This document shows, one piece after another, positions 941-63,633 of a stretch of 64,000 nucleotides of DNA; the first letter of the stretch is position 1; every line of letters starts with the position of its first letter. The stretch lies in NCBI GenBank assembly GCA_963971405.1, contig OZ020486.1, forward strand, positions 1,984,001 to 2,048,000, read 5' to 3'. Source of the stretch: Psococerastis gibbosa (lineage: Eukaryota > Arthropoda > Insecta > Psocodea > Psocidae). The notes beneath the pieces are model-generated. The model ran no database searches, was not told where the DNA came from, and was given only the letters and a program-made list of their open reading frames with translations. A program made the translations under genes and the position numbers.

Positions 941-3900
941 ATGAGTACTGGGGGTGATGCAAATTTGGATTTTCAGAGAACAACAATAAAGGTAAGCTGC
1001 AAGTACTCCTGTAGTTGCCAAGAGTGCAAAAATCGGTAAGAAAACATGAGTTAGCTTTACGTTGATAAATTATTGCTCATATCTACATAGCTTACTTGGC
1101 TAGAGTATGTAAACTAAAAATAATGGGTGCTTTATCCTAAATGGCGTAAGCTTCAGAAGGGATACACCATCTAGAATCATTTGGGATGTTGATAAGTCTT
1201 GATGTAGATACATAAAGGGTGCATGAAGGTATTTCAAAATGCCTGAGGGTTTGGTATTATTTAGAAGTGATACATTGAATATTGATAGAATAGTAACTTT
1301 ATTACGAATGTAGAATGCTGCAAGACGAACCCAATTAATATATTTGATAAGGGTACAGAAGTGAAACGCTGCTGTAACATTTAAAATAATACAAAATTTA
1401 TGTTTTTCCTTATTTTACTATTTCTACTACTACTACTACAACAACAGACATGTAATACTTTCAATTCTCCAAAATGAGAATTTCAGTTTAGAAATTGAGT
1501 CTAGTAAAATGCCCTCCTCCGAATCTCATTCCCATACTGAACTTGTGGCTATTTGCAATTACGCCACATCAATCGGCTTTGGATCATAAATGAAAGTGAT
1601 GCGCACAGCGAGGCCACGTTCGATTCCTCAATAGTAAAGTTTCTTAGTTGAATGGTTCGAGTCCCACGCTTGCTACATTTTTTGACCGTGCTTCGGAGGG
1701 TATGTTAAGCATTCCTAGTGTAATAGAGGGTTTAATAGCCGAACTCCGCAAGGTTGGCTTAGTAGCCTAATAAACCAAAAAGTTATTATTTATTTTAGAA
1801 CTTTCCATTCTGTCACAAATCCAATGTCAGTTTGTTGCATTTGTCTTTACAGTCGGTAATCTGTAATTTACACTCGATCAGTCTCTTTCCAACTATTTTT
1901 CAATATACCATGATGAAGTAGAATTCTGGGCTGGTTTTCATGGGTATGGGTCACTGAGTCTGTCTAAAGTTGCCAATATCAGACATTTTTTGTAATTTTG
2001 GTTAGGTTGAAGAGGAATCAAAGACAATTGTGCCCGGATGTCGCCTTGAAGCAAGAGACTTTGACGGGAGCTGGTATTCGGCGCGCGTGGAGCAAGTCGA
2101 TTGGGAGGACAGGAAGGTGCTCGTGCATTTCGACAAGTGGAGCTGCAAGTTTGACGAGTGGGTCTCCATGGATTCCAACCGGTTGAGATCTATTCAGCAA
2201 CCCCAGCCAAAGTAAGCATATTTTTTCGTTGCTATTCGCGTACGCAGAGCAGATCGTTGGTGCTCGTGTATTACTGTTGAGATCTGGCCGCAGCCCAAGT
2301 ATGCGCTGTTTGTTATCCATTTTTTTCATTGGCACCATTTGCGCAGTGTTAAAATAGCAGTAAAAAGTCAAGTCATCTGAGTGTCTGTCCGCACTTCCAT
2401 GTTTAAATTAGAAAGGGCTCTCAATATACTTATATTTAAATCCCTAATATTGGATGTTGTCATGTTTGCATAATGTATGAATATGTGCTGTAACATGTTT
2501 TTATTTTTAAACTCCTGCACTGAACAGTTGTCGGAAAAGTGTAGAAGAACATTGATAGGATACAAGGACGTGTTAATGAAATGTATTGTAGGTTAATTAA
2601 ATCCTACAAGTCTCCGTTACATGACGATGTATCCATCGCAAATACTAATGATTGTTTCGCGCTTAAAAATTAAAAAAAAATTATTACGGAATCAATTGAT
2701 TACAGGAAAGCGAAGGTTTTCTCCAGAGGCGACTCGGTTTTGGCCATGTGGTCTGCTTACCAGAAATACCCTGCTGTTATATCAAGAGTTCTCCCTGATG
2801 GTAAGTACAATAATTATTAGCAATTTATCTTATAGAAATCCAATACTTAACTCACGGCCATTAGCAATGACGCCCCACCAATCTGAGCGTTGGATTATGT
2901 ACTAAAGTGATACAATGACCTGTCTCTGTGAGATAAGTATGGTGATGCACTGCGCCAATCACAGTGAGGCAGAGTTGGATTATCCTATCGGGGAATTTTC
3001 CATTGTTAATGGTAGCAGATTATAAATTAGACCTTTCAAAACATATTTTATGTTCAACTACGTAGCTTACTTGTTGTGAAATTGTTGGATGTTATACCCA
3101 AAGATAAGAAAATTGAATTGATGGCGCCTAACCATAAGCCGAGTATTGTCTATAGTGGTCAAACGTCAATGAAAATACAAATTTCTAAAATTGAGTTTTT
3201 GGCACCATGAAATCTTTACATTGAATTTATTATCAGAACTTAATTCAGGCATAGCCCAGCGTAAAACTAGTTCAAATATTGGGTTTAGGTTCATTCACAG
3301 GGCAATTAGCTATAGTTTTTGGCTCTCCTGAAAAATTAACTGAGATGGGCTTTCCCCGGTTTTCTTATATACCACTCACATTATACTGCTATGAAGATAT
3401 TGCCAGTAACCTTGCCAGTACCTGCGCGGCGCCTGATGGCAGAAATGCCAAGGGTGGGCGTTGGCTAGTAAGTAAGTAAGTAACCTGTAAGTCTTGTCAA
3501 ACTTACTGGTGTGATGAGATTTGGTTATTGTGTGAGATAGTAGTTGAGTTGCTTTGCTATGGTAGGAATACTCGAACCATAGTAAAGCAAAAATAATAAG
3601 AACACAGATGAGCGTACCTGAACGTAGAAACTAATTGAAGATAATCCTCTCCACTCGGGGGTATTATACTACTATTAATAAGGTGCCCATTCCACATACG
3701 TACAACGTCAATGAAAATTATGAAATTGAAGGTGGTAGCAGACATTAAAGACATACTAAAAATTCTGCTACCACCTTCAATTTCATAATTTTCATTGACG
3801 TTGTACGTATATGGAATACCCGCCTAAGCGTAGTAGCAAGGAATACTCTGTAGGGACACTATAAGCCAATAAGTCCATACGCAACAAACGTACCTCAATT

Positions 3901-6900
3901 TAAAAGAAAATTGTCTGTTGTGTTTCAGGTAAATACGAGGTGTTGTTCGAAGACGGTTTTGTGAAGCGGCTGCCGAGCGGCCGAGTGTGGAAATTGGACA
4001 GCAAGGACGTCCGAGAAAAGCCCGCGCAGACTGTGACGGATGCAGCCGGTATAGGGAGCAAGCAGGACCGTCGCGATCGAAAACGCAGGTTCAGTGGCAA
4101 TGTAGCGGACCTGCTGCGAGGCAACAAACGTCCTGCCAGCTCCACGGCTAAGAGAAGTTCAGGTGAGTAGAGAAAAGTTTCAATCAAAATATGATCCAAC
4201 TTTGAATATAAAAGATACCTCGTCAGGAATAGTCCAGTTGGGAGAAAATTAGACTATGAAACGGAAGGTCGCGGTTCCAAACATGGCATTGATTGCTGAG
4301 CATGTTGATCGCCCCAACATTCCAAATAGTGCAGAAGCCAAGTGAGAGGAGGCTCAATCCTCAGGTTTTTGTTTTAAATTGAAGATGCCTACGGTGATTT
4401 ATGGTAGAATATTGTGCATGGAATTTGTTTTCTGCCACCGTTTGCCATCACCATTAATTTTAGTAGTTATTATGGAGCTTTCTATTGCTGCTTTATGCTT
4501 GAAATTTTCCATTATATTTAGTGAACAATTGCTTATTGTTAGTTAATTCTTTTAGAAGGGCCAAGCGCTACGGTGACACTATCTCAGCACAGCAAAGTGG
4601 CGGCAGCTGTATTGAAAGAGCCGACCACACCAGCGCCCTCCAGCAGCTCACCCCTGCCGGGCCCGCCTTCTGGTGATGCCCACCCGAATGAGCTGCGCCC
4701 ACCTGAAGAGATTGAAGTGGAGTATCTGGACGGGACTAAAGAAAAGTGGACGAAGGTGTTGACGAGACGTTCCGAGGGCAAAACCGCCGGCAGGCTAGAC
4801 ATTGTAATAGCATCGTAAGTACTAATCTCTAAGTCTGTTCGTGCGTCTTTCTCCCTGGAGGGCTTGAAGTGGAGCATATTGACGGGCCCAAAAATTAAAT
4901 GTACAGTAGTCAGGACATGCAAACACCCGGAAAACATCTTAAGACCTGCCAGGCTCTTGTCAGTAGCAGAAGTTCACCAGATTATGTGTTGTATTGGGCT
5001 GCAAAAAAGCTGATGGCGGAAGCCTAATGCTATGGTGTAATTAAAAAAAAAAAAAATGGACATGCAGAGTGGGGGTACAAACTCTCCCGAAAGGTAGTCG
5101 ATTTAAGTCCCACTCTGCTCTTCAGCCCATAAGGTGTAACTGTGCTTGTGGGTTCCCTCTTTAGGTGATAGTTTTAGTCGAAAGAGCTGAAAGAGGGTGT
5201 GTTTTACTCATTTTAGTAATTTCTTCTACAATATAAGTTAATTCTGTAACGTTTATTTGGGCTTACTACTAGTTTTAATAAAACACTGATTTATTGGTTG
5301 TTCGTTCCCTGAGTCCTCAATTATAGCAATCAAGATTAATATTTTCTGTATAAAATTGTGATATTGTGTGTCCGTTAATCACTTAGCCTTTTTCTGTTTT
5401 AGGAACAGTGGGAGGAAGTTTAGGACCCGTACTGAAGTGATCAAGTTCTGCGAAGAACGCAAGATACGCTACGATCCAGTTGTTTTTGATTTCTCCGCGA
5501 AAAACCGCCCTAGGTCTCAAACTATTGCGTATGTGTTAAAATTAATTAATTATTAGTATTTAGTCGTACACTATCAATGCGCCAATGCACAATGTCAGGG
5601 GCCCACTAAGGAGTAGTATGAGGATGACCTCAATCATGATATAAAAGAAAGAAAGAAAGAAAGAAATATATTTATCATACAATACAAAATGAAATTAATT
5701 ATACAACAAATCCACTAAGAAATTAACAATGTTCCTACTAAATATATATATGTATAAATTCCTCCGTTGGCACCTCAATCAAAACCTATGAAATGCGGAA
5801 CCTACTTGGAACTCAAAACAACGGCCCAGGACAGAGAAAATGGAGAACAAAATTGAAAGATTTGCTGCAGACCAATAGGTAGATTGTGGCTAGGGAAAAC
5901 GTGTTATTGCCACTTGCAATGCGAAGGTAATAATAATTACAGCATGGCCACGTTTCTGGTATCCAATAAGCTGGATTTAGTTGGATAAGCTTTATTATCT
6001 TTGGTCTCATATCCGAAAGAAGGGCCAAGTGGATGGGTACGTGATCTGATCCGACACAAACAACTTCTATACACAATAATACAAGGCACCATTGGGGGCA
6101 CCCATGACAGGAGCTGAATTTGGAAGGCGTATGCAGAGACCTCAGGCAAGATATGAGATGATAGTCGTGTACACGCTCAATAGCAGCTGCCGTCAGACTA
6201 GACATTGTTTTTGCTCGTAAACAGGTTTTGACAATATTCGTCTTGAAGGACAAGGTGACCACTGTTCAATTTGCTCATTTTAGGGAGATTCATCTACCTA
6301 TTGAGATGGCGACCAATGTTCGACTTTCGGAAAATTTCTTCACAACTTTTCATTTCATGACCCCCTGAGCCTAAAACCACCCTCCCTTCAAAATGTTAGA
6401 TATATATGTATATCGATTTTAGGAAACACTCTAACTTCCGTAAATATTATCAGATTTGGATGAAACTTGGCACAAAAATTGATCATACAAATGCCTTGAT
6501 CGAGTTCGTTAACCAGCTAGATCCGCTATTTAGTTATAAGATGGCGGCCGATTGAAAACTTATATAATTCATATCTCAGTCAATATTGGTCGCAGAGGAA
6601 TGAATTAAAATCTGATTGAAAGATCGTATTATTATCTACGATAATGGTAATCTACACTTTTTACGACAAATTAACGATTTCAAGATGACGTCCAGTCAAA
6701 GTAAAAATAATTTAATAAGTAAAAGTTCATAGTCGTCATAGTTTGGAACACAAGAGTGTTTTGTGTGTTGATGTTGTGATCGGGAAAATAATGAAATTTT
6801 TTTATATTTTCTATTACACATAGCGTCAGGGGCGTAAAGGGGGGGCAAGTTGGACCGTGCCCCCCCCCCAGCTCCTTTTGGCTTTACCCCCCCCCCCCCC

Positions 6901-9900
6901 AGCTTCGAGCATTGTAAGACGTGGTTCTTACTTCATAGTCCCCTTTGCAGCAATATGAATATGAGCATTCTTTTTTAGCTTTGTAAAATCTACAGCTATA
7001 CTTTACAACTATTAAAAAATGCGTAAAACTCTACAATTTTTCTGTTATATTATCAATTTTTTCTTCAATCCTGCCTGATGACGTCATAAGGTCTACTTAG
7101 TTTTGCCCCCGCCATCATTCTAAAACTTTACGCCTCTGGATAGCGTAGAGGAAAAGCAGGGTCTGCGGAATCTCCCTACACCTGATCGGCCATAGCCGAA
7201 AGGGATTTTTATTTCATGTTTTGTTTTCCTATTAATACGTTTGTATATAGAAAGCTTTGTGACGGTCGAAGTATTCGATTTCGGGATTTCAACTAAATTA
7301 TGCGTTTTGAGGTCGCGGGAACCAAAACGTGTCTTTTTACAAAATGTCTGCTTGTCGCTTTGTTGTTCGCCGTTATGTGGACCAACTACTGAATGTATTT
7401 GGATCAAATTTGTCATGTAGGTTTACAAAAATCATGTCTCTGGAAATTTTTTTATGTTTTGGGCTAACTCTGTTTCGGGGGGGTTTACCCATGTTTATGT
7501 TTTAGGCGCGAAATATAGAAACAAAAAAACCGGTTGCGTTCCGAGACAAGGCTTTGGTTTGAAGGAGAAACTATTTTTTGAATAAATGTGGTTAAACCAA
7601 ACCACAATACATTGCATACCATGCTCTTATTAGTGTTATCATATGCCTGCTTTAACAATTGTCTCATCGATCAATTCAGTACGTTAGAACAGGGAAAAGC
7701 TTCCGAAAAGGACCATTATATATGTACCAGTCAAAAATTCCTAACCTAACCTAACCTAACCTCGTATATGCTAATTAATTAATAGGAAAGCCTGTGCGGG
7801 TTCACTCGTAGCGCGGTAGCGGTTCCTTTTTTGGTTGTTGCTATGTTAATATGTTTAATTGTTTAATATATTGATTTTATTTATTTGTTTTCAGCAAACA
7901 GTCTCCTGTTGTAGTAGCCAAAGAGCCGGAAGTTGTTATTAAGCCCCCACGGGAACCTACACCCCCTCCTGAGCTGCCTCTCCCTCCTGAGCTGCCTCCC
8001 CCTCCTGAGCTGCCTTGCCCTCCTGTGCAGGTTCCCCCTCTTTTGGAGCCACCCCCTCCTGTGGAGCCACCCTCTCCTGTGGCGGGACCCTCTCTTGTGG
8101 AGACACCCAGTGTCCAGGCAAAGTTGCCCCCCGTCCCTTCTGCATTGACCATCCCTGTAGAGGAGCCCATCGAAGAGGAGGCGAAGAAGTATATTGGCAA
8201 TATGGAGATAGTCGTGCTGGATGGACAGTTTATATGTCCTGTGGATGACTGCCGCAAGCATTTCCGCAAGGAGAACCTATTATATGTGAGTGCTGTACTG
8301 GTTATTATTTTTATTTTTTGAATGACGTTTAAAGCTGGCCATTCACGAGGGCTCCAAACGGACTCTGTACACTGTACAATTTGAAAGATTTGGAGCGACT
8401 GGTTCAGCGTAGTCGTGATGCCCCTTTTAAATGGCGCTAACGTCCAATGGAACAGGACGCGCCATTTGGCTTGGCGTGAGTCCATTTGGAGCCCTTCTGA
8501 ATGGCAATGGCCAGTTTTATGTACATATAGGCCTATGATTCATTTACCCTTAGTCTTGCCCCATTGAATGGGCGTGGTTTAAATATTACTCTGAAACTGG
8601 AAGAAATGATTGAATGTGGGGGTAAATCAGGTTGATCAGTTGTCACATCCTCTCGTGAAATTATCTGATTCAAGAAATGGGATAGTATCCTATTCGGACA
8701 ATCAAATATTTGAATAATAGGTGTGTTCTGAAGAATGTTATAATGATATAATATTGCCAAAAAAGTGATTATTTTCGGTATTGTATAAAACATTTTTATT
8801 ACTGTAGATAAAAAATGAGTAGTCGTTTAATAATGTACATAAAATAAAATCAAGGTTTGTTGAACATGACGGTCAAAGTAAGTTGCTTGACTGTCTTCGT
8901 CTGCTTTATTTCTGGGTAGCCAAGTTGTGCATCTGCTTTTTCTTTCTTCTTGTCTGAAAGTGATTCGGATATTCGAGGTTCTATTGTACCTGGACTACAC
9001 GGCCATCGTTGCAGGCATTGCGTACGCCCGCACTGCCAGCAGTATGTCAATCGTCTCGCAGTTGTAACCGGTTTCAACCTGTTTTCAGATGCCCATAAAC
9101 CCACCCTGATCTGTGCAAGCACCTAGACTAAACGACCATCGTTACAGTTGGCCTCCTATTTGTAACCGGTTCGAACCTGTTTTCAGATGCACATGAAGCA
9201 CTACCATCCTGACCTATGCAAGTACCTAGACTACACGCCCAGTGTTACAGACCTTGCGTACGCCCGTACTGCTAGCAGTGGCTTCGCTGTTGAGGTGGCC
9301 TCGGTCTCGCCCCGCCCCGTGGCTCGCCGCTCCCTCGAACCTAAACGCGCCTCCTACGGAACAACGTAAGTACACCAGCTGCTTGTTACTTGTTGGGGGA
9401 CTCGTTGAGCGCTAGTCGCTAGCGCTTGGCAACCAAGCTAACTTATTACTGGGGATCAAAAGATTAAAAAAAGCTATGTATATATATAGATATAGAAAAG
9501 GACTTTTCATTCAAAAATATTAAGTTAATATTTATATATATATATTTTTGAGTAGACCATATGGGTCACAGAAATATGATAATAATGATGGCTTGTTTTA
9601 AATTTCAGGAAGGAATGCCGGGTGGCATTGATAAGAACCGAGAACTCGGACTTAATGCAGCAGGCACAAAGGTAAAATATGTATATATTTTGTTTATATG
9701 TATGTTTTTTTATTATGTATATATGTACTGTATATTGATGGCATATCGATGAATATCAATGACAGAAGGGATAGAATTAGAAATGAAGTTACGATAGGTG
9801 AGTTCCGGGTGGAAGAACCGCTGAACTGACTGAAGATAACGAGTACGAGACTGCAATGGTTTGACACGTAAGGCGGGTATTCCACCGGCGATTTTACTTC

Positions 9901-12900
9901 AAATTTGATTTTGCCATTGACGTTTGTTTTGTTTTAAGGAGACTATTATGTAGATACCTAACTTATTTATTATAAATTAAGTCATATATGGTAGAAACTT
10001 ATTAATGATGTCTGCTACCATATTATAACTTAATTTATAATAGATAAGTTAAGTATCTACATAATAGTCTCCTTAAAACAAAACAAACTTCAATGACTAA
10101 ATCAAATTTGAAGTAAAATCGCCGGTGGAATAGCCGCCTAAAGCAGATGGATAACAGCAGAAAACTGCAAAAATGTATAAAAATGTGTATTCTTTTTTGG
10201 ATAAGTAACTAATCATATTTTTATGTTTGTAATTTTATTTTTTGTTTGTAAATTACTGCCGAGTGCCGCCAGGTGGCGCCACCACTCCCACCTCAGTTGC
10301 CATGGGGACAAAAGGGTACCATAGGCGTACACATTATTGATTTTTAATTATGATGTTATGATTGCAGTCACATTTCTGACGTTAAAACCATGGAAACAGA
10401 ACCACCTGTGGTAGAGGACGTGAAGCCAGAGGTGAAACCCGTCGTAGTCGAAGAATCAGTGCCATCTAGTCCGCTAACACAAAAGCTTCTCCCTATAGGT
10501 AACCAACAGTGCATTATGTATATACCTTGCCTTTATAGTAGGTTCAGTGCATTAGGAGCAAATCGAAGAATTCACAATTGTCTTTAGTACAATATGTAAT
10601 TTTACATTTTTGATCTTCTGAGGGGTTTGAATGGGGGTCACGTACCTTTGAATAAAATTTCTTTTACATTGTGATGCGCAGTATGTGGCCGTACAGTATG
10701 TGGCCGTACAGTATGTGGCCGTCACTAACACATTTGGGAGAAGCTGCGGAAGGCTAGTTGGGAATTTCTCACAACTTCCGTCAAATTTAATTTTGGAAGA
10801 AAAAATATAAGTTTTGCGATTTGCTCTTATGAGACTGTTAGAAAGTATAGGAGACCAATATAGGTTCACTGGTCACACGAGTTAGGTTAGTAGATAAATA
10901 GATCATAATTTCATAACACTGAATGGAAAAATCTGGCACCATCCCAAATAGTGCTGTGAGCAAAAATGGACTGTACTAACCTAAACCTGAACTCAAGGGT
11001 TATCGTGGTTTTATTTTCTGTACTGCCTGGTCCAGTTTCTAGTTCCCTTACATAAACTTTTAACGTCTTTCTATTATTTTGGATCAAGAAAAACCTATAT
11101 TGGTCGACTTGTTGTAATGGTGTTCCATTATAAGCTACCAAAAGTTCTAATCGTATTTCGATTTAAGCTTATACCGCACTACAGTTGTGGCAATGCCAGC
11201 TTGGCTGCAATAGTGGGTAGGAACGCTGTGTGTTTGGCTGTGGCTTACTGCTATCCCTTCCAACTTTGGTTTTAACTACGGGATTGCTTCGACTACTGGC
11301 TGGTGAAGCAGTAGAAACCGTTCGATATGAAAGCGTACTTCCAAACGTTTCGTCAACATCTGCATCTTCAGTATTACTTACCAGCTAATGCCCACCCTTT
11401 TAAGTTAGATATTTGGTGACCAGTTATATATAAGGGCGTCGAATCCGATGGCTGGGTCATGTACACCGTATACAAGCGGAGAGGACGCCGAAGCTGTTTT
11501 TCGAAGACACCTTCAACCAACCTAGGTGTCCTGGTAGGCCAAGACTTAGATGGAGAGACCAAGTGCTCGAGGATGTGCAAGCCACCGGCACCCGAAATTG
11601 GGAGCAAGCGGCGGAAGATCGTCCAAGATGGCGTGGTGTAGTGGTAGCGGCCAAAAGTTCCCTCGGGCTGGACGCGCCAACCTATGTCAAAGTCAAGCTG
11701 ACCAGTTTAGGCGAGATGCCTCGACACCGTCAGTAGTACTGTCGCACTTTGTAGATTTCAAAGATTGTATCTGAGATGCTGAGTAGCAACTGGAAGTACG
11801 GTTTCAGATCGACCGCGGCTTCTTCATCGGACTCCGGCCGTGGAAGTCTTTGTAATGATATTGCTTTAATTACTGTAGTCTTCGTTCATGTCGAATATGC
11901 TTCTAAATGTTGTCATGCTTTACAAAATGACAGAGCTTTTGTTGCAATATACTATAAATATGGTTTTGGAAGATATTTGTGTAGTATATACTCTTAACGT
12001 ACCTTTAAGGGTAAATCGGACACCCCACTAATTTTACAAAGTTGAATAAGTGGGGTTGAATTTCACAGGAAATATCCATTGTAGAGCTATTAAAAATACT
12101 GCATGCGTTCAAGAAATATTGCTCTACATTGATATACTGTAGGGATATAACTCCGATTGGCCACAGTTTTTGAATTCCTTGTTCTGGACACCCTCACCAA
12201 CCCCACCACACCCACAAAGCAATTGTGGCCCATCGGTGTTCAAATGAGGCGCATATCAGAGGTCAAAATGATCATGAAAATTTCTTCTGAGGAATGTGAC
12301 ATTTTTACAGCTTTATAAGCGATGTTTCATGTGACATTTGATTTTTACACTTGAAGACGTCAGGGGAAAAACAGGAAAGGTGCACTTTTGGTCGAAACTG
12401 AGATAATGGTGGTATTCTGTTCAGTTTTTAATGTAGTTTTAGATGACCTAACAAAACCGAAGAAAACCAAGTAAGGTTCTGCACAAATGGCGTAGGGAAA
12501 AAACAGAATACATGGGAAGAAACGGCTACTTTCAACTTTAAATTCAATTTCTGAAAAATCAACTTTTGATCACCTTACCGGTTTTTCCCCTGTCGTCTTC
12601 ACTTGTCAATCTTTTCCTGCTCCGACTGTCTACTTCCTGCAGTTTGTACCAATTCAAATTTCTCTGGAATTATTTATGGTAGAGCTATCATTAGTGGCTC
12701 ATTAGAGAAATGTTCCTCTACATTTTGATGTTGGTGTAGTAGGCTACAATATGCATACTATTATGTGGTAGTTACCGACACCTAATCGGAAAATTGACGA
12801 AAATACTAGACATATGCTTACTTCTGACGCCTTCCATAACCATTATGGAAAATCGATGTTAGTGCTTATTAAAAATCTATCTACTGTATCTACTGAGCCC

Positions 12901-15900: not shown

Positions 15901-18900
15901 AGTATCGGCTTCCACTTACCGCTGTTTACCTGATACACCCGGCATATACTTTATAATAGTGTGTATTTGTACTAAGAACACAATATTTCCATGTATTTCT
16001 CTATCACCTAATGGTGCCGTTTAGTTGCAGCAGTAGCTGAGGAGGAGAGTGTGATCGCAGCTCCTCCACCGGTGGAGCCGAGTACTAGTCGTTGTTATGC
16101 CGACAAGGTGGAGAAACTGCGCAGACACGAGATCATCAACTGCATTTGTCAGATGAAGGAAGAGGACGGTCTTATGATACAGGTGACCACACCTTCTTAT
16201 ATTATGCAGTGTCGAGGAGTGATCACAGCACTCCTAGCGGTAGAGCCAGGTACTAGTCGTTGCAGGCAGGCAGGTTGTCCCTGGGGAAAATATTAAAATT
16301 GCCTAGGTTGGGAATAATAGATTAATAAATATATTATTTATAAAAAAAAAAATTGAACTTAATTCCGCAACATAAATTTTTAATAGTAACAGCTCCAACA
16401 AGTACCTATTACCGTACTTAGTAAAGAAATACCTGAGTAAAGAAATAAAACAATACACTGAAATACCATGTGTGGGGGACATTAGTCTACGAACCAGCAG
16501 AGTGATAGAACGCAGCTGCGGGAAAATAGTTTCCTTCTCGACGCCTAACTTAGGTAGGATGATATTTAATTGTAAAGACAATGTTGAAAATCTGAGGTCA
16601 GGGGTTTACTAACTGAACTTCAAGAATTGTGACATTACATATGTAGGCCAAACGGGACGAAATGTTAAAGAAAGAATAGCTGAGCATAGGCGAGCGGTTG
16701 GCAAGTAGGACTGCGACTCTGCTTTTGCAGAGCACCTACGTACCTCTGGCCATACCTCGGATTTCTCGATTGTTAAGTTATTATATGATTGTGACAAGGG
16801 CAAACTGTTAGATAGACTGGAGTGCATAGAAATAAGAAATGCATTATGTATCAATTGTAACCTCGGTTAATGAAATAACATTTATGCACACTTCCCCTCT
16901 CTTAGATCTAGTAACAGGAGTGCCCCGCCCATTCCCCTTCCACACTAATTAAGACTGATGTAAAAATAAATAAATAAAAATGAATAACGACTTTATTTTT
17001 ACGTGGGCGAACCATAAGACTAGAAAGTCTTCTATGGGCTAACCCAGGCAAGACAAGGTAATAGGTGCTTGTTGGAGCCAATGGTGTCACACCGAAACAG
17101 CTGTTACTATTAAAAATGTATGTTGTGGAATTAAGTGCAATTTTTATATATAATATACTTATTAATCATGTTTGACTTCCACGGAGTCACTGAAGAAACT
17201 CTCTCGTGGGAATAATAGTTTCAGATGCATGCTTTTAACCCTTTTAGAACATGCACTGGTCTTTTCTAATTCTGTCTCATGTTTCAGTGTGATATCTGTC
17301 TGTGCTGGCAGCACGGGCACTGCCTCGGCATGTCCAGGCAGAGTAATGTACCTGAGACTTACATATGCACTGTGTGTAAGAACCCTTACAAGGGACGCTC
17401 CTCACAACGCTACTTGAACCACCAGACGTGGATGAAGGAGGGAACACTTCCAAGGTAGGTAACAGATACGGTGGATATCCAGTACATATGAAGAACCATT
17501 ACAAGGCGCGCTCCTCGCAGTGCTAACTGAGCCAACAGGCTTGGTTGAAGGAGGATGCCCTTCCAAGGCAAGTAGCAACACTGGAACCCAAAGACATTTT
17601 TTTCAACTAAAAGACACTGAACTCAAAAAGAGCTGCAAACGTTTCAGGCTTAGGAGTGACTCCGTTCTTCAGGAATGAAATGAGGGTAGGTTGGCAGTGC
17701 CTCTATCGAAATATCCATAGTATTGGAGTTAGTGAACTAGTGGAGGGGTAGCATTTAATAGTGTCAGGAGGCTGAAACGATTCAGTTTGCCAAGTTACAT
17801 CTTAGAATTTTCACGTGATTCATGATATGGTTGTTACGTAGCTCAAAATGCATGGTTAACGCAATTTTCCCCCCAATTATTACGTTTATGTTTCTGTCAA
17901 TAGTAACTGAGTAACATTGTTTGTTTTCAGCTTGCCGTATGCGCAAGAGAGTGATGAACGGAGAGAAAAGAGTGCGAGACAGCAAGCTATGTTGAAGCGA
18001 TCGTTTGAGCTGAGTGGGCAGCTGACATTGCTTACGAGATTGTTGCATAGTCTGAAGACGAGGGTCAGCATAGCCAAGCACAAAGACCACCCCAAGCTCT
18101 GGATGTGGGCCAACAGCACCACCACTGTGTGAGTGTTTTATCTTCCAAAGTGGAAACCTGTCGGGTTTGGTAGCCCCAACGATAATGAAATAGTACAGAT
18201 CGTGCCTAACCATAAGCTAAGTATAGCCGATAGTGGGCAAACGCAGGAGGAAATGTGACCATGTTATAGGGTTGCAAACAAAAAACGAAAATATTGGAAA
18301 ATTGAAAGCAAATGAACAATTCAACTGGCAGGGCTGACAAATGAATCGCAGGAGCAAAAGTGCTGCGTGTACATATTATGCCTGAGTTGGGTGGCATTCT
18401 TAATAGCTTGATTTTGCCTGTATTTGGCTTATGGCGAGAAGCTCTGAAGCTCTGTCGCTTAGCAACGGTCGCGTTGGATAAGTAAGCTAAACTAAAGTAG
18501 GACTCCCGCGGTTAGGGTAGAGAAATGTGAATATTAGTATTCATTCTGCAGTGTTCCAGTGTAGTCCGAAGTAAGGTTTATACATACACAGCTGATTCCC
18601 AATTGTTTAATTTTGCTTACAGTAAAACTGAAGACCCGAGGACCCCAAAAGTACCTGAACCAGAGAAACCCATCGATTCGGTTGAGTGTAGACTGAACCT
18701 GCTTACCAATGTAGAACAGTACCAGGAAGCGGTGCAGAAAAGACTGGATGCTATCGAAGCTGAGCTAGAGCGTGAGTATACTATACGGTATACCTTTAGG
18801 GCACATGTAACCAGCGGAGTTGATTTGAGTAGCTATGTTGCCGATCTACAACAGTGGTCTACAACTGTGAACAGCGTGGGCCAGCAAGAGGAGGCAGTGC

Positions 18901-20125: not shown

Positions 20126-20204
20126 AAATCTACCATAGCCCGCCCAGTCATCTACTACTACTAGCACCTGCATCTACACCTAAACGTACGCCAACTAGCC
20201 ATCA

Positions 20205-20305
20205 GTGACCTGCGAATCATATGCTAAGGTTGAGGCGGCTGGCCGTCGTCATACTCAAGAAATATCTGAACATCCTCGAGAAGTTTTGTACATTATCCTA
20301 CGCCT
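20205..20305 (+). pseudogene. Shadow of PHF20 terminal exon 16
   Basis: About 450 bp after the stop codon, AATCATATGCTAAGG, CGTCGTCATACTCAAGA and CATCCTCGAGAAGTTTTG match exon 16 (AGTCATATGCCAAGG, CGTTATCATGCTGAAGA, CACGCTCGAGAAGTTCTC) in order and spacing. The frame is lost. Confidence 0.8.
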
Positions 20306-32805: not shown

Positions 32806-32836
<31 letters not shown>

Positions 32837-44837: not shown

Positions 44838-45762
44838 CAGTGCCGGATTAACCACTGGGGGGGCCGGGGGCACAAGATATGGGGGGCCGTGGGTGCAAAC
44901 CAGAGGCGGACGAGGCGGTCCCAGACCTCATAAAAGGGTGAGGCACTTGTCAGTGGCGTAACGATAGGTTTTCGAAGGTGTATAATTCGGCGCCTCTCCA
45001 CCCATTTTCATAAAAGTAGCTCAGGAGACAGAGGGCTGAAATAGTGGGTTTTCCATATTTTGAGAGCAATAAGGCTTACACTTTACAATGAATCGATATA
45101 ATTATGGACATGGGGAGCCCGGGGGGCTCCCCCCGGGGAAATTGTTTGAAAAATAAGGCTGAAATATTGAGGTTTTACACATTTTGAAAGCAATAAATTT
45201 AAGTTTTATATATTATAGGGAATTAATATAATTGTGAACTAGTGGGGCCCGGAGGTCTCCTTCGGGTAAAAGTTTTTGAAAAATAGGTCTGAAATATTGG
45301 GATTCTACGCATTTTGAGAGGAACAAGGTGCTGTATAAATTACAAGCAATTAATATAATTGGGTACAAGTGGGCCTGGGGTCTCCCCCGGGGAAAAATGT
45401 TTGAAAATAGGGCTGAAATAGTCTGGTTTTACGCATTTTGAGTGCAGTAACACTTAGGTTTTAGAGGCAAAGAATATAACTGCTTCCAAAGAAGGGAGGG
45501 GCAATAGCAGATCGCTTCGTCAGCCTCTGGTGCTACGGCCTCTATAATTCATAAACCTACCTACCAGCATTGCAGCAGCAGCAAAAAAAAAAAAAACAAA
45601 AAAAAACACTATTTCCCGCCAATTTCAAAACTTTTAATTTCTAATTTTTTTATATTTTTTTCTAAAAATATCTCATTCTGGGGGGGGGGGGGCCGGAACT
45701 TTAGGCATTTCTGGGGGGCCGGGGGCCTGTGCCCCAAGTGCCCATAGGTTAATCCGGCACTG
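44838..45762. mobile_element. hAT-like composite element with internal satellite
   Basis: CAGTGCCGGATTAACC at the left is inverted at the right (GGTTAATCCGGCACTG). Flanks CACAGTGG and CATGGTGG match at 6 of 8 positions, fitting an old 8-bp target duplication. It contains a tandem array (45030-45480) and long G runs, and no transposase. Confidence 0.75.
45030..45480. repeat. Tandem array, about 125-bp unit, 3.5 copies
   Basis: Each unit repeats GGCTGAAATA, TTTTACGCATTTTGAGAG, AATTAATATAATTG, GGGGCCCGGGGTCTCCCCCG and GAAAAATGTTTGAAAA in order. Units begin near 45035, 45160, 45287 and 45410. Divergence between units suggests an old array. Confidence 0.85.
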
Positions 45763-55370: not shown

Positions 55371-58300
55371 CTAAACGTCGTCTTCTAAGGATTTAGGTAT
55401 CGGTACAACACCTATTGCTATTTGCTGTTTTTGTGCCACAGCGTTCAAAACATGCGACAGCTGATCCATTTTCTTGTCCATAACATACAACTGTCAACAA
55501 TAACAAATATTAAGTAACTTATTAGCATACAGTTAGGGATATTTTCTTGCTGTGCAAGCCCGGCCTACGTCATTATTAAAATGTAAAGTAACTTTACTCG
55601 GAGTCGTATCTGCATGCGCTTGCGGTCATGCTCTCACCTGTTAATGGTAACCTTGTCATAGCTTGTCCATTATCTCTTGTAGCCGGTGTAGGTTGACATC
55701 GAGGACCTAATATACCAGTTTGCCAATGGCCAAAATTTCTTAAGGAAACAATATAAACAATGTCCGAAATCCATGGAGTCGTTAGCATTGGACAAGGGAC
55801 CAATAATACGTCCTTCAGGACATTATTACTTACATACAGTTAGCTTAATTAATTGTTGTAATGTAGTTGACAAATTTAGTATAAATAAATATTATGTAAT
55901 TAACAAGAAATAGGTAATAAAAAATAGTCGAATTTTGTTAGCAAAGGACGGCACTTTCGGTCATGACCCCCTTCAAATAAAAAGCTGGATCCGCCACTGA
56001 TTGTAACAAGGGATCAACTATTTCCTTTTTTATTATATGAAGTTAAGTTTATTATTTATTTGTTATATAGTCTATTGCAGGGACGGATCCAGCACACTTA
56101 GGGGGGGGGGGTTAGTCTTGGGTCAAAATAGAACAAACATGTGTGGAATCGATGAAATTAGAGCGCAATAAATTAACCTTCAATAGATTTACTAAATTTG
56201 GGGGGGGGGCAGCAAAATATGATATATAAGATATGCGGAACCAACTTGGAACGCGAAAAAATGACAGAGATGAGTGGAGAAGATAGTAAAAGATTTTCTC
56301 TGCCAACCAATCGACAGATTGCGACCCAAGAAGAATTAAGAATTAAAAAAATAGGGGAAAAACAGTGAACGGCATAATATTCACACAATCATCAGGAAGG
56401 GGTAACCAATCTACCCCCCTTCGTCCCAATAGCAGCTCGCAGTCCTATGTGAACTAAGGTGTCCTCTCCCTAGTCAAATCTGCATTTTCTCTTTGCGTTG
56501 AGCAAGCCTCAAATCATGGATAAGGTGTAACGTGTAACTGTGCTAGTGGGTTTCCCTCATCTTCCCGAAAGCTGTCAGGGGTTTTTACATCTGCACATTA
56601 GTGGGTTTCCGTGATTTACGCTAATTTTTTAACGTTGGGTTTTACTAATACTAGTTTTAATAATAAGTTTTAATAAAACGCTGATTTATTGTTTGATCAA
56701 GAAGATGAAGCAAGACAGGACCAGGGGCGTAATTCACGAATGATCAAACTTGTTTGGAGGTGAAATCACCAATCAGGATAAAGGAAAGTCGTCGATCCTG
56801 ATTCGCGTTAGGATGGCAGATCTACAACAGATGCAACCATGCTCTTTGTTTTATAAATTTGTAAGCAATAGTTAGATACCTGCTGCTCCACCCGGTACAG
56901 ACGAGCCCCTATTGTCATTGGCTTTGCATTACCCGATCTGTCGACGCCAGTTAAGTAGCTTCCTGGTTTACCCAAAGTTTGATCTAGCCGCCTTTGAAGT
57001 TCCTACACAGAAAAAAGATAACACTGGTAATTAACAACGTGTTTTGGGTCCTTCAACTTCTCCTGTCCGCTTTTGAAGTTCATATAGGATAAGCTACTGG
57101 ACAATTTTTGAAAACCGATTTTAATGCATTAGTACAACTATATTATGCTCCTTCAATTTATTGCTTTCCAATTTATACGTAGTATAAGGAAAGCTTTGTG
57201 ACGGTCCAAATTTTCGATTCCGAGATTTCAACGGATTTACACGTTTTACGGTCCCAGGAACCCAAAAAAGTGGTTTTTACGAAATGTCTGTCTGTCTGTG
57301 CGTCGATTTCCGGGCAAACTACTCGGTCGATTTTGATGAAATTCGGCATGTAGGTTCACAAAAATCATACCTCGGAATTTTTTTTTTATTTGTGGCTAAC
57401 TTAATTTGGGGGGGGGTTTTATTCTCAAAAAACTTTAATTTTAAATTTTAATGAAACCTTTCTATCGATGATTTCTAACTTCAGGTATGTTTTAGGTGTT
57501 ACATTGAGTAACGAAACCGGACAGGTTGCTTTCCCAGAAAAGTATTTGGTTTTGTGCAATTTTTTTTTTTTTTTTTGAAAAAATGATAGAAAATTCACGG
57601 TCAAATGCATTGCGTGCCCTGCCAGTATTGCTGTGTGGTCTGACCTATCTAGAATTTACCTCACCTCCAGTGACGTCAGCGGGACAACCCCCCCCCCCCC
57701 CCCCCCCGAGATATCGGAAATCTAACCATACGAAAATTATTTACCATGAAATTACTCATTTTCTCTATCTACTAATTTTGATAAATTGGAAAGCATGTTC
57801 GAGTAAACTCGGACCGGTTCTTTTTTCCTAGAAAACGTTATTTAGAAGAGTAAAACAATACTTTTTGCCATCCATATACAGTTATGGAAGAAATACTAAG
57901 AACGCGGAGCTTTTCACTAATTTTTCTGGAACTATTTGAGATAATGGCACCAAACTTGGACATGAGCACCACTACCTGGAGGCACTTCATTACTGTTACC
58001 AACAGTTATAAGCAATGTATACTTCTTCAAGAATTGAAGATAGTTGAAAATGGCTGGCAAAAATAATAAGAACGCCGTCAAAATTTTTACAATTTTTAGC
58101 TTTATTATGCAAAAACTTCAATTAAATTAACATTTGGTGTGTCTGCCTATTGTTTTGCATTGCAGCATTGCAGCAGTTTCTCATCTACAGCACCAGGTAT
58201 TGACATACAATGATGGGTATCATCTCCCGTGTCTTCTTCACTTGAAGCCGCAGTAGTAGAAATTTTTTCATGAGGTAGACGGCTTGTCAGGTCATTCCAC

Positions 58301-61300
58301 AAGTTTTTGATGGGGTTGAAGCCGAGTGACTGCGCTTACCGCGGTAAAACATCGACTCTGCTGTCCACTAACCACTACTTCACTAGTATGAAGGAGTTCT
58401 TGGGGACATTGTACTGCTGGAAAACCCATTTCACTGGCATTTTCTCGTCAGGATAGGGTGGCATTACGTCTTGGAGTATGTCTCTGTAACTCTCTTTCGT
58501 CAAGATATCTTCTATACGATGTATTGGGCCAACTCCCTAGTAAGAGAAAAAGCCCCACTCCAAGATGTTACTGCCACCGAACTTAACTGTCTTTTTTGGG
58601 TACCCGGAATTTAAAGCAGCATTGGGCAATCCTCTGGGAATCTGTTTTCAATAAGTACCGAAGAGATAACTTTTGTTTCATCACCCCACAAGCCGTTGTG
58701 CCATGACCCCCGATCACAGTTCTTAGACACGAAGGCAAGACGGTCTGTATTCTCTTTTTAGATGGAAGTGGAACATTTCTCGGAGATTGACTAGGTAGGG
58801 AGGCTTCAAGCAACCGTCCCATAGTACTTCGTTCGCTGATGGGAGCGTCTAGGCATTATTGCCAGGTCTCGAGAACTTACAAACGGTGTCGCTTTCGAAA
58901 TCCCTTAGAGCTATTGGTCAAAACACGGTGTTGTCTTCCCCTTTCTGCCCCTCGCTTCACTCTTGGGGTCCAGTTTCAAAGCTTGAAAAATAATTGATTC
59001 CTATCTTTGCAAGAGGTAACTTATTTCCGTCATTTCTCCAGTCTTTCCAAAGAAGTAAGATGGCGGGTCTCTCCTCGGCCGAGCAATACTGTGATCGCAC
59101 CATATCTTCACAAGTACACTGTTATAACTTATTAACAGCAGAACAGGGAAAAATGTATCGTGTCATAGCCCAAATAAACAAAATACATCTCGCGTTCTTA
59201 TTATTTTTGCCAGCCATTTTCAACTATTTTCAATTCTTAAAGAAGTAAGCATTGCTTATAACTGATGGTAACCGTAATGAAGTACCTCTAGGTAGTGATG
59301 TTCATGTTCAAGTTTGGTGCAATTATCTCTAATAGTTCCAGAGAAAATAGTGAAAAGCTCCGCGTTCTTATTATTTTTTCCATGACTGTAAGTGTGACGG
59401 TTAAAAAGCAACGTGACGTGAGAATGTGATGTCATTTGTGACGCGGCGGAGTAGCCGCTAGTACTAATTCCCTCATGCCCAATACAAAATGTGACGCCAT
59501 TTCAAGGTCACCCATCTGACCCATCTGTGCCGACGCGACGTGTTTGGGCTCTTGTAAACACCAACCTTTATTTATTTCTAATAATATTATGTATTTCTTG
59601 TACAATTTTGTTCATGAAAAAAATTGAATTATTATTGTTAGCCTATATGTTCCTTATCCAGCATGTTTTATATTTTATTGTTACAACTGTCAAGTAGCTT
59701 ATTATGTCGTACAATTGAGGTCCGTAAACATCTGTTCAAAGGAGGTAGGCCTACCGTGAATGGCTCATCTTGACATCACCAAATAATATACGGATGCGAC
59801 TCTCCGTCGACCATCAGTCCAGTCAGTCTATATCAAATGATCGTCTGTTTTTGTTTGTTTTTGTTTGTCCTCACTGGTTACTCCACCAAGTGAGGGAAAT
59901 ATATTGAAAAAAATAAAATTGAACAAATTATATATCGGCGCAGGTACCTCCGGATGCAACACACAATGAGGCCCTAGGCCCAAACAAATACATGCCATAA
60001 CTATTTCTGTTTCCCGATGGTTACGGGGTTGAATCTAAAAATAAATACATAGGTATATTATAAGGAAAATAAGTAGATTATAATATAATTATAATAATTA
60101 ATTAAATCAATTAATTGAACAATCATCATAATTATTTTATATATAGATAAGTAATTATATTCAATATAAGGTAAATAAGGTAAATAAATTGTAAAGTAAA
60201 GGTTTAAGAGAGAAAGAGAGAATTATGAGTTTCTATACGACTTGGAGCCATTTTTTAAGTAATTTTTTGACTTGACCTATACGCTGCTTATTTTTAAGGT
60301 AAACAGGCATCCTGTTAAATAATTTAGATACAAACACTGAGTTGGTACGGTCACCATACTTGTTTCTGGTTGCTGGTATTGGGAGTTTATGACAGTTTCT
60401 CGTAGGGTGGTACGGTATTAGTAAATGTTGGATTGTAATAGTTATTTAAGATTATTTTGTAATCCAGTAAATTCCTGAACAAGTTATCGGTTTGGTACTT
60501 TTTTTAAGTACCTCGCGGATAATAGGTTTTTTAATATATGGTGATGCAACTTCTGCAATGAGTCTATGCAGCTGTTGTCATCTCTGGCCCTCTGTTCGGC
60601 CACTTGTTCAGAAAAAAGAGAAATTTTGTAACAATTACCAAACTTATGGTGTATGCACCTATTGACATTATAGCCAATGTGCGAGCTCACCTTAATTCGA
60701 ACCATCATGTTGAGATGTCCCTGACTGTACTGCTCAATGACATCTCTCACGTCGTACGGTTTCCTAGCCTGTTGAAACTTTCTGCGCGCGACAAAATATT
60801 TGATCTTCCGTATGGCGCGGATGGCATTCCTGTGCACATCTGTCAGCCTAGAACATTCAATCCTCTGTCAATTATTGCGAAACAGCCTAGTCGAAAGGGA
60901 AGCAAAGTGTTAGTGACAAATCTGTGCTCAGTGATTAGGTTTTGAAAAATTCATGCTTTTGCTGTGTTGGAAATTGGAAAACAGAGCAAGTAACAAAAAA
61001 TAAAGAGAATCAGAGAGAAAAGATTATACTGTATGCAAGGCCCGGTACACACGGACGGTTTTTGCAGTCGCGATTTGCTGACGTCTTTTCCATTGCAGTC
61101 ATAGGGCTATCAGAAGATTTCTTTTCGATTTCTTGAGGATTTCGGAAGCTGGCGTGAAGTCGACGACACGAAATTGCACGGTTTTCGCCTAGATACGCAA
61201 GTTCATAGAAATCTTCTGAGCAGACTCTGCGAGTTTTCACCATTCACGAGGCCCTAACCTTACATTGGAAAATACGTCCACAAGTTGCAACTGTGAAAAT

Positions 61301-63633
61301 AGTCCGTGTGTACTAAGCTTACCAGTAAAGTTTATCAATGGAAATGAAGTAGATACTGTAGGTATAATAATTAAAGGTTTAGGTACGACAAAAATTTCAA
61401 AGACCTGCAATAAATTATTCCTCGTCAATATTCAAGTGGAGGAATCTGATATTCTAGAGTTCAAAATTATAAATTGGAAAACTATACCTGGATAATATTT
61501 TTAGCAGCGAAGAGAAGCCAATTAGGCGTGTTTGATGCATTTTAAGAAATAAGTATGTGAATGTATTTATTTATGTTAGGTACGATACATTTCTACATTA
61601 CAATAATTAAGAAAGTGATTTTTTGGTTTTGATTGTGTATTCAGATAAGTACGGTAATAGGTAAATATTTTCTGTACCTGCATGTAAGGTGAAGAATATA
61701 TAGTATGTATAGAAAATATTACAATACATTCATGTTTGTAGTTGCCAATAATTCGTTGAATAGAAACAAATTACAAAGACATTGTAAATGTATGCATTTC
61801 AAGAATGCAAGGCATGAAGAAGGCAGACATAATTTAACAAAGGCACATCGGGGCTACTAAGAAAAATAGTCAAAAAGAGTTATTATTATTATTATTTTAT
61901 TTATTTGTCCAAAAAGAATAGTTATGCATAAAGTGAAAATGAAGTGAAAGTAGACTTAAATATTGAGCTGGCATATACGATAACTGTACTGAAAAAGATT
62001 TGAGGTAAGGAAAGAGAAGAAGAGATCAATTGAAGCTGTTAAATGTACTAAATGGTATTAGAACGTGAAGTAGGCAAGAATATAGGAAGAAGGGAACATT
62101 TTAATTTTGAATTTGGTAGTTGAAGAGGTTAGGACAATTAAATTGTTTAACTGGGTACGGAACTCACTGAGTAACACGCTGCGGCTCCTCCGGGTATTCG
62201 AGATCCATGTCATCGCTGGGGGCCTCTGTCATACTGCTTGCTTGGCTCGCGAACAAGCTCCCACGCCCTTCACGACGAACTCTACGCCCAAAAACATAAA
62301 AATAAATAAACTCGTGCCTAAAATGTGCAACACCTATCATTTGCTATTCTTTTGGAGATGTATTATTCAAGATCCAGCGACTCTGTCATACTGGCTGCTT
62401 GGCTCCCAAACAAGCAGTTACCTACCTCATGGTACTACGATAGCTTAAACATACTGCAGACTAAATCTTCATTTATTATTATTTTTTAATTACATTCTTA
62501 ATTCTGAATTGCATTCATAGCATAATTTAGTTATTTATGTGCAACTGCGTGACATTCTCATTCAGACCCAGACCAGAAAAAAGTGTCAGCGAGATGTTAT
62601 AAAGTGAGCATAGTGATTGAATAATTTAAATTACCAACTGTCTGTAAAAAATTAAGGTCTAATCAGGTATACTCCTGGAACTGGACTAGGGCGTTCGTTG
62701 TCTTCTCGGTGGACCAGTTCCCGGTTCCTCAGTTCAGGTTGTCAAAAGTTGTAAGAACTGTTTTAGACAGTCCCTAGGCAACCTCGTTTTCCAGTGCACT
62801 CCTGATAGTAGTACGCTTTACCAAAAGGGAGCATTATCAGAAGATCCACCCTTACCCCCAATGTCTCAGCTTATTAGTGAAACAGAGATGGATGTTGCCC
62901 TTGCAGGTAACGTGTGGTTGGCGTGCAACCAGATGATAGGTTTGATAAGATTAGTAATAGCAGGTTTTTTTTTTTTAATTCATTGCTTTTTTGACTGAAG
63001 AACTACAAAGGTTAAATTCATGTACCGTATATGAATTGTTGAAGTACCATTTACCTAATAACTTAATACAATATTTATGTCCAGCAAAATAAGTTCTGGG
63101 TTAGTTTTTAATTGACAAAACTTTCCACGACCAGACCGCGGATGAGTCAACAGACTGGACTAAATTATGAAACTGCAGAAACCGGGCTGATGGGCTTTGA
63201 AAAATGACGACGAAACATTTGTAAATACTCTTTAAGAACGACCGCGGCCCATCAGTCCGGATTCTACCGGTTTCATAATCTAGTCAAGTGCGTTTACAAA
63301 GGAAAGAAATTCTAGGCACTTGGCTCACTGAGTCAGCGTTGGAAACAGTGGCTACCACCAGGCCCATCAGCTTGTTGTGTAAAATATATCCTAAAAAAAT
63401 TCACTTCAATCATCATCGATGTCAACTTTCACCGATTGAAAGCGGCAAAGGAAAAGTGGAGCCTTGCTTATGATCGACACATTGCGTACTGACCTGTTGG
63501 GTGTCGCAGCTTTCGGCTCCTCCATGTAGAAGACTACCTCCGCGTCCCCATCTGACTTCTCGACGCTCTGCTGCTGCGGGTCCATCTTGTTGCGGCTCTT
63601 GCGGCGCTTCAGGACAGAGGCTCTTTTGGCCAC
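55371..63633 (-). CDS. KCNQ: KCNQ (Kv7) voltage-gated potassium channel, C-terminal five exons (partial)
   Basis: Exons in transcript order: 63494-63633, 62168-62281, 60691-60847, 56880-57002, 55371-55490. All phases agree, giving 217 residues and TAG. Exon 1 here is a basic/acidic linker. Exon 2 ends Asp-Asp-Met-Asp-Leu-Glu, as before KCNQ1 helix B. Exon 3 is helix B ([19 protein letters not shown] and Glu-Gln-Tyr-Ser-Gln-Gly-His-Leu), the calmodulin/PIP2-binding part. Exon 4 is helix C (Leu-Gln-Arg-Arg-Leu-Asp-Gln, Gly-Lys-Pro) through Ile-Gly-Ala-Arg-Leu. Exon 5 is the helix D coiled coil that sets tetramer assembly, with a short tail. Motifs are closest to KCNQ1. Membrane segments, pore and helix A lie beyond the right edge. 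The channel gives slowly activating K+ current at the plasma membrane. Confidence 0.93.
55650..55808. repeat. Dispersed repeat E, copy 2
   Basis: TTGTCCATTATCTCTTGTAG, CGGTGTAGGTTGACATCGAG, GGACAAGGGACCAAT; matches 31095-31255. Lies in the last KCNQ intron. Confidence 0.65.
56078..56215. mobile_element. Non-autonomous hAT-like element, right-truncated
   Basis: CAGGGACGGATCCAGC start and the GGTCAAAATAG, AGAGCGCAATAAATTAA, CAATAGATTTACTAAATTTG blocks match 28906-29078. The right terminus is missing. Confidence 0.7.
56240..56345 (+). mobile_element. LINE C-terminal scrap
   Basis: GCGGAACCAACTTGGAACGC and GACAGAGATGAGTGGAGAAG encode the Asp-Arg-Asp-Glu-Trp-Arg-Arg tail and match 5785-5890 and 34575-34640. 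Confidence 0.4.
56460..56697 (+). repeat. SINE-like repeat (family B), copy 2
   Basis: AAGGTGTAACGTGTAACTGT, TAGTGGGTTTCCCTC and the TAGTTTTAATAATAAG, TTTTAATAAAACGCTGATTT tail, as in 5055-5302. Confidence 0.55.
57040..57085 (-). pseudogene. Shadow of KCNQ helix C exon, with acceptor side
   Basis: On the plus strand GTCCGCTTTTGAAGTTCATA and GGATAAGCTACTGG echo the exon edge and intron (GCCGCCTTTGAAGTTCCTAC ... GATAACACTGG). It lies about 40 bp upstream of the exon in transcript sense. Confidence 0.6.
57161..57822 (+). mobile_element. HINE with internal deletion
   Basis: 662 bp with both ends intact: TTGCTTTCCAATTTATACG at 5', then ATAAATTGGAAAGCATG, the perfect hairpin CGAGTAAACTCG and GGACCGGTTCTT at 3'. 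About 190 bp of the middle is absent. Best-conserved ends of the family. It ends 56 bp before the Tc1 element. Confidence 0.75.
57879..59388 (-). mobile_element. Tc1-like transposon with IR/DR ends, decayed transposase
   Basis: 1510 bp, starting CAGTTATGG and ending CCATGACTG, flanked by TA on each side. Terminal inverted repeats are about 195 bp (57879-58074; 59192-59388). Each holds an outer and an inner copy of GGAAAAATAATAAGAACGC-type sequence, the IR/DR layout of Sleeping-Beauty-like Tc1 elements. On the minus strand, remains of the DDE transposase read [14 protein letters not shown] and [10 protein letters not shown]. Stops and frame breaks make it inactive. Confidence 0.92.
59389..60199. 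other. KCNQ intron remainder
   Basis: AT-rich. I see nothing coding and no named repeat apart from short (TTTTGTTTG) runs near 59850. Confidence 0.5.
60200..60640 (-). mobile_element. LINE C-terminal fragment next to the KCNQ helix B exon
   Basis: On the minus strand: Ile-Pro-Tyr-His-Pro-Thr-Arg-Asn, [13 protein letters not shown], [12 protein letters not shown], a LINE tail (Thr-Arg-Asn ... Leu-Phe-Asn ... Leu-Pro). Frame partly open, truncated. It begins within about 50-200 bp of the exon donor. Confidence 0.55.
61037..61320. mobile_element. TIR element, CCCGGTACACACGG family
   Basis: AAGGCCCGGTACACACGGAC at one end; AGTCCGTGTGTACTAAGCTT inverted at the other. The interior shares GACGTCTTTTCCATTG and GAAGCTGGCGTGAAG with 37843-38040. 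No coding capacity. Confidence 0.75.
61321..62167. other. KCNQ intron
   Basis: AT-rich, with a (TTA)n stretch near 61880. No other feature recognised. Confidence 0.5.
62370..62432 (-). pseudogene. Shadow of KCNQ linker exon
   Basis: On the plus strand AGCGACTCTGTCATACTGG, CTGCTTGGCTCCCAAACAAG echo the exon's GGCCTCTGTCATACTGC and TTGCTTGGCTCGCGAACAAG. About 100 bp upstream of the exon in transcript sense. Confidence 0.75.
62433..63493. other. KCNQ intron with foldback element
   Basis: No exon recognised; holds the inverted-repeat element at 63158-63285. Confidence 0.5.
63158..63285. mobile_element. Foldback element
   Basis: GACTAAATTATGAAACTG and GGGCTGATGGGC are inverted at the right as GCCCATCAGTCCGG and GGTTTCATAATCTAGTC. 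About 128 bp, no ORF. The middle GAAACATTTG motif resembles the element at 35446. Confidence 0.7.

Follow-up and report, generated by a model that had tools for sequence, protein, structure and literature searches.

The window analysed here, a stretch of 64,000 nucleotides (G000:C3:1984001-2048000) from a genome of 409 Mb in 68 contigs that is animal judging by its genes, contains a PHF20-like gene on the + strand, a KCNQ gene on the - strand, and a third gene between 35.7 and 40.5 kb that is multi-exon in appearance. In the PHF20-like gene the Tudor exon matches PHF20L1 (E 4.5e-16) and the PHD_5 domain is split over two exons. The initial annotation had labelled the third gene Kazal-type; domain and homology matches bear out its other two gene names, whereas a scan of ORFs, reading frames and three exons at 35.7-40.5 kb recovered neither a Kazal domain nor any other family above the cut-off. 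Exon borders were read manually from open reading frames and splice sites, and the assignment of the copies described below to introns rests on this reading. The exon list is incomplete and comprises 19 exons (5.3 kb), of which 18 were scorable; the score of 320 obtained for the exon 7895-8285 is an artefact of masked letters, and this exon was counted as not scorable.

Several further elements are present in the window. A - strand ORF of 377 aa (42491-43621) encodes a reverse transcriptase (RVT_1) and is likely a retroelement, a Tc1/mariner-like transposase fragment is found on the - strand at ~58270-58596 (Sleeping Beauty match, E 1.2e-18), and a - strand ORF of 518 aa (21713-23269) contains an F-box. 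There is also a tandem array with a unit of 123-130 bp and a GC-rich stretch (45025-45489), two long palindromes of foldback or MITE-like type (9871-10139 and 3689-3817), and a stretch that is repeated ~8 kb apart in three collinear pieces (25314-25991 and 33335-34016).

Parts of exons of the three genes recur nearby, on the same strand and in degenerate form:

4702-4751, + strand: parent, part of a PHF20-like exon (~4530-4815)
4854-4904, + strand: copy of 4702-4751 in the downstream intron, offset 152, 76% identical
9149-9250, + strand: parent, beginning of PHF20-like exon 9187-9365 with its 3' splice site
9051-9147, + strand: adjacent upstream copy of 9149-9250 with the 3' splice site, offset 98
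8986-9043, + strand: second upstream copy, of 9222-9279, 84% identical
16045-16110, + strand: parent, part of a PHF20-like exon (~16030-16191), first half of the PHD finger
16214-16277, + strand: copy of 16045-16110, offset 168
17364-17475, + strand: parent, 3' part of the PHF20-like PHD exon (17288-17454) and its 5' splice site
17476-17585, + strand: directly adjoining tandem copy of 17364-17475, offset 112, donor now GC
18854-18919, + strand: copy of 18688-18754 (PHF20-like exon ~18570-18786), the weakest of ten
20197-20300, + strand: copy of 19653-19749 (exon ~19570-19745 with donor), offset ~545
38238-38293, + strand: upstream copy of 38381-38436 (exon 38377-38635)
37737-37818, + strand: far upstream copy of 38332-38411 with the 3' splice site
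38703-38727, + strand: short downstream copy of 38514-38538
39348-39436, + strand: downstream copy at offset 167, of 39181-39279 (exon 39020-39277 and its donor)
39529-39622, + strand: second downstream copy, of 39169-39267, offset 360
62195-62258, - strand: parent, part of a KCNQ-gene exon (~62170-62285, frame read manually)
62364-62415, - strand: copy on the 5' side of KCNQ exon ~62170-62285, 88% identical, 12 bases deleted
57063-57086, - strand: possible copy of the KCNQ exon part 56984-57007, under the global cut, passing a targeted test

We aligned the window with itself, gapped and on the same strand, at offsets of 20-600 after masking of low complexity (match 5, mismatch -6, gap -20/-6); 5/-4 scoring was not used for this global scan because it yielded long random alignments in shuffled sequence. 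The window contains 23 pairs with scores of at least 80 and 13 with scores of at least 100, as against means of 0.25 and 0 in eight dinucleotide block shuffles, in which the top single score was 86. Five control bands at far offsets gave 0-5 and 0-4 pairs at these two thresholds. Self-alignment with shuffled controls, which the initial annotation had proposed as a check, thus upholds its central claim that decayed partial exon copies exist. The scan recovered 10 of the 12 positions which that annotation had named: nine (4853, 8987, 9063, 16207, 17480, 20205, 38243, 39575 and 62370) score above every shuffle, and 18855 has a score of 82, which one shuffle exceeded. Among the remaining two, 57040 stands by a targeted test (score reached by 2 of 1000 shuffles with 5/-6 and 1 of 1000 with 5/-4), and 2229 is marginal (8 and 38 of 1000, respectively). 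The copies at 37737-37818, 39348-39436 and 38703-38727 are additional to the named set. The parent-copy spacers measure 0-513 bp, close to the 20-450 bp given earlier, and the occurrence on both strands that had been stated depends solely on the KCNQ gene.

At the level of exons, same-strand copies (score at least 80, at most 700 bp away) are found beside 9 of the 18 scorable window exons, a share that is biased upwards, as several of the listed exons entered as parents of named copies. Opposite-strand copies within 700 bp are found for none of the 18 (top score 73), and none of the 4-8 far placements tried per exon reaches 80 (top score 68).

Outside the window we sampled 20 random 10-kb regions and surveyed 32 conserved exons without internal stops, hand-picked from family searches blind to copies (20 of 134 kinase, 7 of 101 ion-channel and 5 of 28 SET matches). 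Same-strand copies occur beside two of the 32 survey exons and inverted copies beside none (scores of 70 or less). In the kinase exon of locus L038 the HRD region recurs 160 bp away in broken form. The voltage-gated-type channel exon of locus L050 (Ion_trans) has an upstream partial copy at an offset of 193 and a downstream copy at an offset of 184 and then 312. Copy-bearing exons are therefore more frequent in the window, with 9 of 18 against 2 of 32 (Fisher p 0.0007), given a window chosen for the feature and a biased exon list. Over the 11 copy-bearing exons of window and survey, copies are on the same strand rather than inverted (sign test p 0.001). Among local pairs of any kind inverted ones prevail, with 38 against 23 direct pairs in the window and 183 against 59 in the random regions, and many of the inverted pairs are palindromes; the same-strand rule is thus limited to exon copies. 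The phenomenon is recurrent and not universal: the earlier description of it as a genome habit holds in that copies recur at L050 and L038, and fails as to rate, which is 2 of 32 survey exons and not about half. Local same-strand pairs of any kind have a similar density in the window (23 in 60.0 kb unmasked) and in the random regions (59 in 190.4 kb); in the former they are mostly exonic and in the latter mostly repeats. One repeat family, internally duplicated at 71-72 bp, recurs in many of the sampled loci (L014, L017, L022, L025, L026, L042 and L045).

The repeat content of the random regions, together with the two of 12 named positions that the global scan did not support, could suggest that the copies are chance similarities, transposon pieces or products of misassembly. 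This reading is already largely refuted, and we regard it as the least probable of all those considered: shuffles are nearly empty, the far and inverted placements of the 18 exons are empty, and the stretch 17364-17590, the only exonic pair checked in this way, occurs a single time genome-wide. Moreover, copy and parent differ by 11-33%, unlike haplotype duplication in an assembly.

The state of the copies was assessed on a set of 16, namely 13 from the window, one from L038 and two from L050. Indels are found in most of them, and, within the traceable homology, a splice site is missing in all 16: the acceptor end in the nine copies located downstream of their parents and the donor end in the seven located upstream. 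In 59 of 63 comparisons (p 0.004, with relative positions entered by hand) downstream copies correspond to the 3' part of the exon and upstream copies to its 5' part, the exception being 16214-16277; this pattern could also arise from short offsets alone. For 15 of the 16 copies (38703-38727 was left out, and in two instances two copies derive partly from the same parent) we counted mismatches at codon positions 1, 2 and 3. These are 65/273, 53/283 and 95/274 in the 12 window copies, 18/95, 15/94 and 29/98 in the three survey copies, and 83/368, 68/377 and 124/372 (23%, 18% and 33%) in the pooled set. As controls we applied the same count to two tandem pairs of intact exons from this genome, with 14/53, 4/53 and 36/52 for a dynamin pair (L016, one of the random regions) and 4/41, 4/41 and 22/41 for a channel-pore pair (L061, chosen for overlapping family matches and outside the survey). 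The third-position share of changes is thus 45% in the copies versus 69% in the intact pairs (p 0.0002). The rather flat spectrum fits drift of the copy by ~0.2 per site and a parent confined to silent changes, and neither the spectrum nor the indels give any sign of coding constraint in the 15 copies. Codon-position spectra and missing splice sites together argue for neutral decay.

The dynamin exons (Pfam Dynamin_M; L016:623-780 and 841-1000) are both intact, lie at an offset of 218 bp with a third-position bias, and are probably mutually exclusive. The potassium-channel pore exons (Pfam Ion_trans_2; L061, reverse strand, ~404-672) lie at an offset of 143 bp and are both apparently constrained; the ~13 bases between their presumed splice sites are too short to splice, and steric exclusion may therefore make the two exons mutually exclusive. 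A further locus, G000:C19:32574405-32578062, matches the same 60-80 residues of the myosin head seven times in succession at intervals of 375-691 bp, and resembles the alternative exon clusters of muscle myosin.

Intact pairs of such fitting size in the same genome raise the question of whether the copies are remains of alternative, mutually exclusive exons that once functioned, were maintained by selection and subsequently disappeared. In line with this, the 12 bases deleted from the KCNQ copy are a multiple of three, and the L050 channel exon ends at what we take to be the site of the alternative exon pair of vertebrate sodium channels, a coincidence that would favour such an origin. However, a long functional phase would have loaded third positions, as seen in the 69% of the intact pairs against the 45% of the copies, and over the traceable homology all 16 copies are partial and lack a splice site. 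With their stops, indels and missing splice sites there is no intact mutually exclusive pair among them. The codon-position test does not favour former alternative exons, and we consider this origin unlikely.

Still more improbable in our estimation is that the copies act in splicing or expression, as decoy splice sites or poison exons, or serve as templates for gene conversion. A good 3' splice site (near 9088) is retained in the copy at 9051-9147 and a GC donor (near 17567) in that at 17476-17585, features that a splicing role might use, but the nearly flat codon spectrum, the indels in most copies and the lack of any complete exon among them speak against function. Among the roles proposed in the initial annotation, decoys and conversion templates hence find no support, while a source of new exons is plausible in view of the two intact tandem pairs with strong third-position bias. 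No function is indicated for the copies themselves; it is the duplication process that is a plausible source of new exons.

The offsets of the window copies range from 98 to 595, so that the donor is local (within 5 kb), as expected of repair-mediated duplication by SDSA capture. Only 2 of the 13 are directly adjacent to their parents, with spacers of 0 and 1 base, and in the other exonic pairs the spacer has no clear homology to either flank (z of 2.0 or less). Spacers resemble the flank in the non-exonic pairs L027 and L047 (z 9.9 and 4.1). Plain head-to-tail duplication is therefore unlikely as a general origin, since likeness between spacer and flank is absent in most pairs; it would explain some copies, and spaced local copying the remainder.

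Across all sampled DNA, 184 pairs have a score of at least 80 and an offset of at most 3000. Forty of these have no further match in that DNA and span less than 95% of their offset; of three pairs searched for in the whole genome, each was found once. Among the 40 unique pairs, 34 have an offset of no more than 600, and half of those 34 (17) fall at 139-193 bp, compared with four each in the neighbouring ranges of 84-138 and 194-248. Five of the 14 pairs not known to be exonic also lie in the range of the exonic set, 143-193 (p 0.005). This peak was recognised post hoc and is unexplained. Nucleosome repeats and Okazaki fragments have sizes near 140-195 bp, and exons position nucleosomes. The peak and its partial recurrence in the pairs not known to be exonic might reflect, in this lineage, a specific replication- or repair-linked process of same-strand duplication with a preferred step of ~140-195 bp, about one nucleosome repeat or Okazaki fragment, that is favoured at exons; exons would then shed decaying fragments which rarely survive as alternative exons, like those of dynamin and the channel pore. 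Flap-derived duplications with an internal spacer, described for Okazaki maturation in the sections of PMC12633238 drawn on here, would offer a precedent. On the other hand, the numbers are small and the range was chosen post hoc, several pairs come from one exon, one of the 14 pairs (L027) lies inside a larger array, pairs covering at least 95% of their offset were left out, and the minimum offset is also set by exon length and the need to fall outside the exon. We consider such a process unlikely.

The initial annotation had noted that intronic duplications might be equally common but harder to see, and had proposed a comparison of exonic with intron-only matches. The 23 window pairs comprise 13 exonic pairs, one that joins two copies of one exon, two unique pairs without known exon overlap (21147 and 48077), and seven that were excluded. 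Of these seven, 8018, 40179 and 40213 are repeats within coding sequence, 45025 is an array, and 12059, 52906 and 59191 recur at other places in the sampled DNA. Exonic pairs thus number 13 against 2 (p 2e-10), or 13 against 5 if the three repeated elsewhere are included (p 1e-8), where pairs from one exon are not independent; counted by exons the figures are 9 against 2 (p 4e-7) and 9 against 5 (p 9e-6). Simulated detection under constant birth favours exon-derived copies 1.5-1.6-fold. As the excess in the window is far greater than this, either a factor beyond detection contributes there or introns turn over rapidly, which would itself add to the exon excess. In the outside survey two or three exonic events stand against 12 non-exonic ones in an estimated ~230 kb (p 0.19 or 0.05 by event counting). 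The exon bias is therefore strong locally, in a window picked for the feature, and the excess outside is not significant.

Taken together, the copies derive from exons of the same gene, lie in a neighbouring intron, are incomplete and show no coding constraint, and can be described as degenerate partial tandem exon duplications. They are on the same strand only, with a nearly flat codon spectrum, and single-copy in the genome for the one exonic pair checked. We interpret them, with a probability of roughly three in four, as scars of small same-strand duplications that arose by ordinary replication or repair errors, were tolerated and decayed neutrally. An error of this kind would copy part of an exon, with or without a splice-site flank, leaving ~25-145 recognisable bases on the same strand 100-600 bp away, either directly adjacent or behind an unrelated spacer. 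Lacking at least one splice site, the copy would probably not be recognised as an exon, and as a partial exon invisible to splicing it would be harmless, so that it could be fixed and decay. The parent would be held by selection while the copy drifts, and because the parent is conserved, copies of exons should still be recognisable at an age at which intron-intron copies no longer are. The alignments against shuffles, the exon-level search and the codon-position spectrum all support the claim of local same-strand duplication followed by decay. Several observations count against the neutral-scar interpretation: the exon excess in the window exceeds the simulated detection advantage; most spacers show no residual flank homology, so that simple head-to-tail duplication is insufficient for most cases; none of the window copies is young (divergence of 0.11-0.32 per copy at codon positions 1 and 2), although under simulated constant birth about one third would be expected below 0.10; and the same-strand rule applies to exons only.

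Short paired duplications termed doublets are reportedly defined by exact matches. Like the window copies, doublets (Thomas et al. 2004, as cited in the sections of PMC2671141 used here) are short, same-strand, nearby or almost tandem, and abundant; unlike them, the window copies are decayed and are recognised via the conserved parent. The relevant sections of Pace et al. 2009 (PMC2671141) describe repair-mediated duplications of proximal DNA inside vertebrate transposons, with an average distance of 1.2 kb and, for the proximal ones, lengths of 162 bp (mean) and 147 bp (median), which include partial exons and splice sites, two complete exon copies without constraint, and one inverted exon copy. 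The window copies are similarly short and local and include partial exons and splice sites; they differ in that offsets are mostly below 250 bp and no exon copy is inverted. At their age, breakpoint marks such as microhomology, filler or deletion would no longer be readable. Alternative duplications from Okazaki flaps, obtained in mutant yeast and inhibitor-treated human cells (PMC12633238), share the same-strand orientation and internal spacer; in the sections of that report considered here they have no exon link or preferred offset. Surveys of tandem or intronic exon duplication (Exonize, PMC12343006; Ivanov and Pervouchine 2022, PMC9013439), as far as the portions drawn on here describe them, covered annotated genomes (20 eukaryotes from Ensembl; human, fly and worm), whereas here about half of the scorable exons in one stretch are affected. 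The copies belong to an ordinary kind of small duplication, and no new kind is required; their density around the window genes is unusual, and this density and the offset peak merit counting across the genome.

Partial exon copies of this type are both raw material and by-product of tandem exon duplication. As their parents are conserved, they record small duplications older than intron-only copies can. A genome-wide count would provide a clock for small duplications, and would test both the rate of duplication at exons over introns and a nucleosome-linked duplication length.
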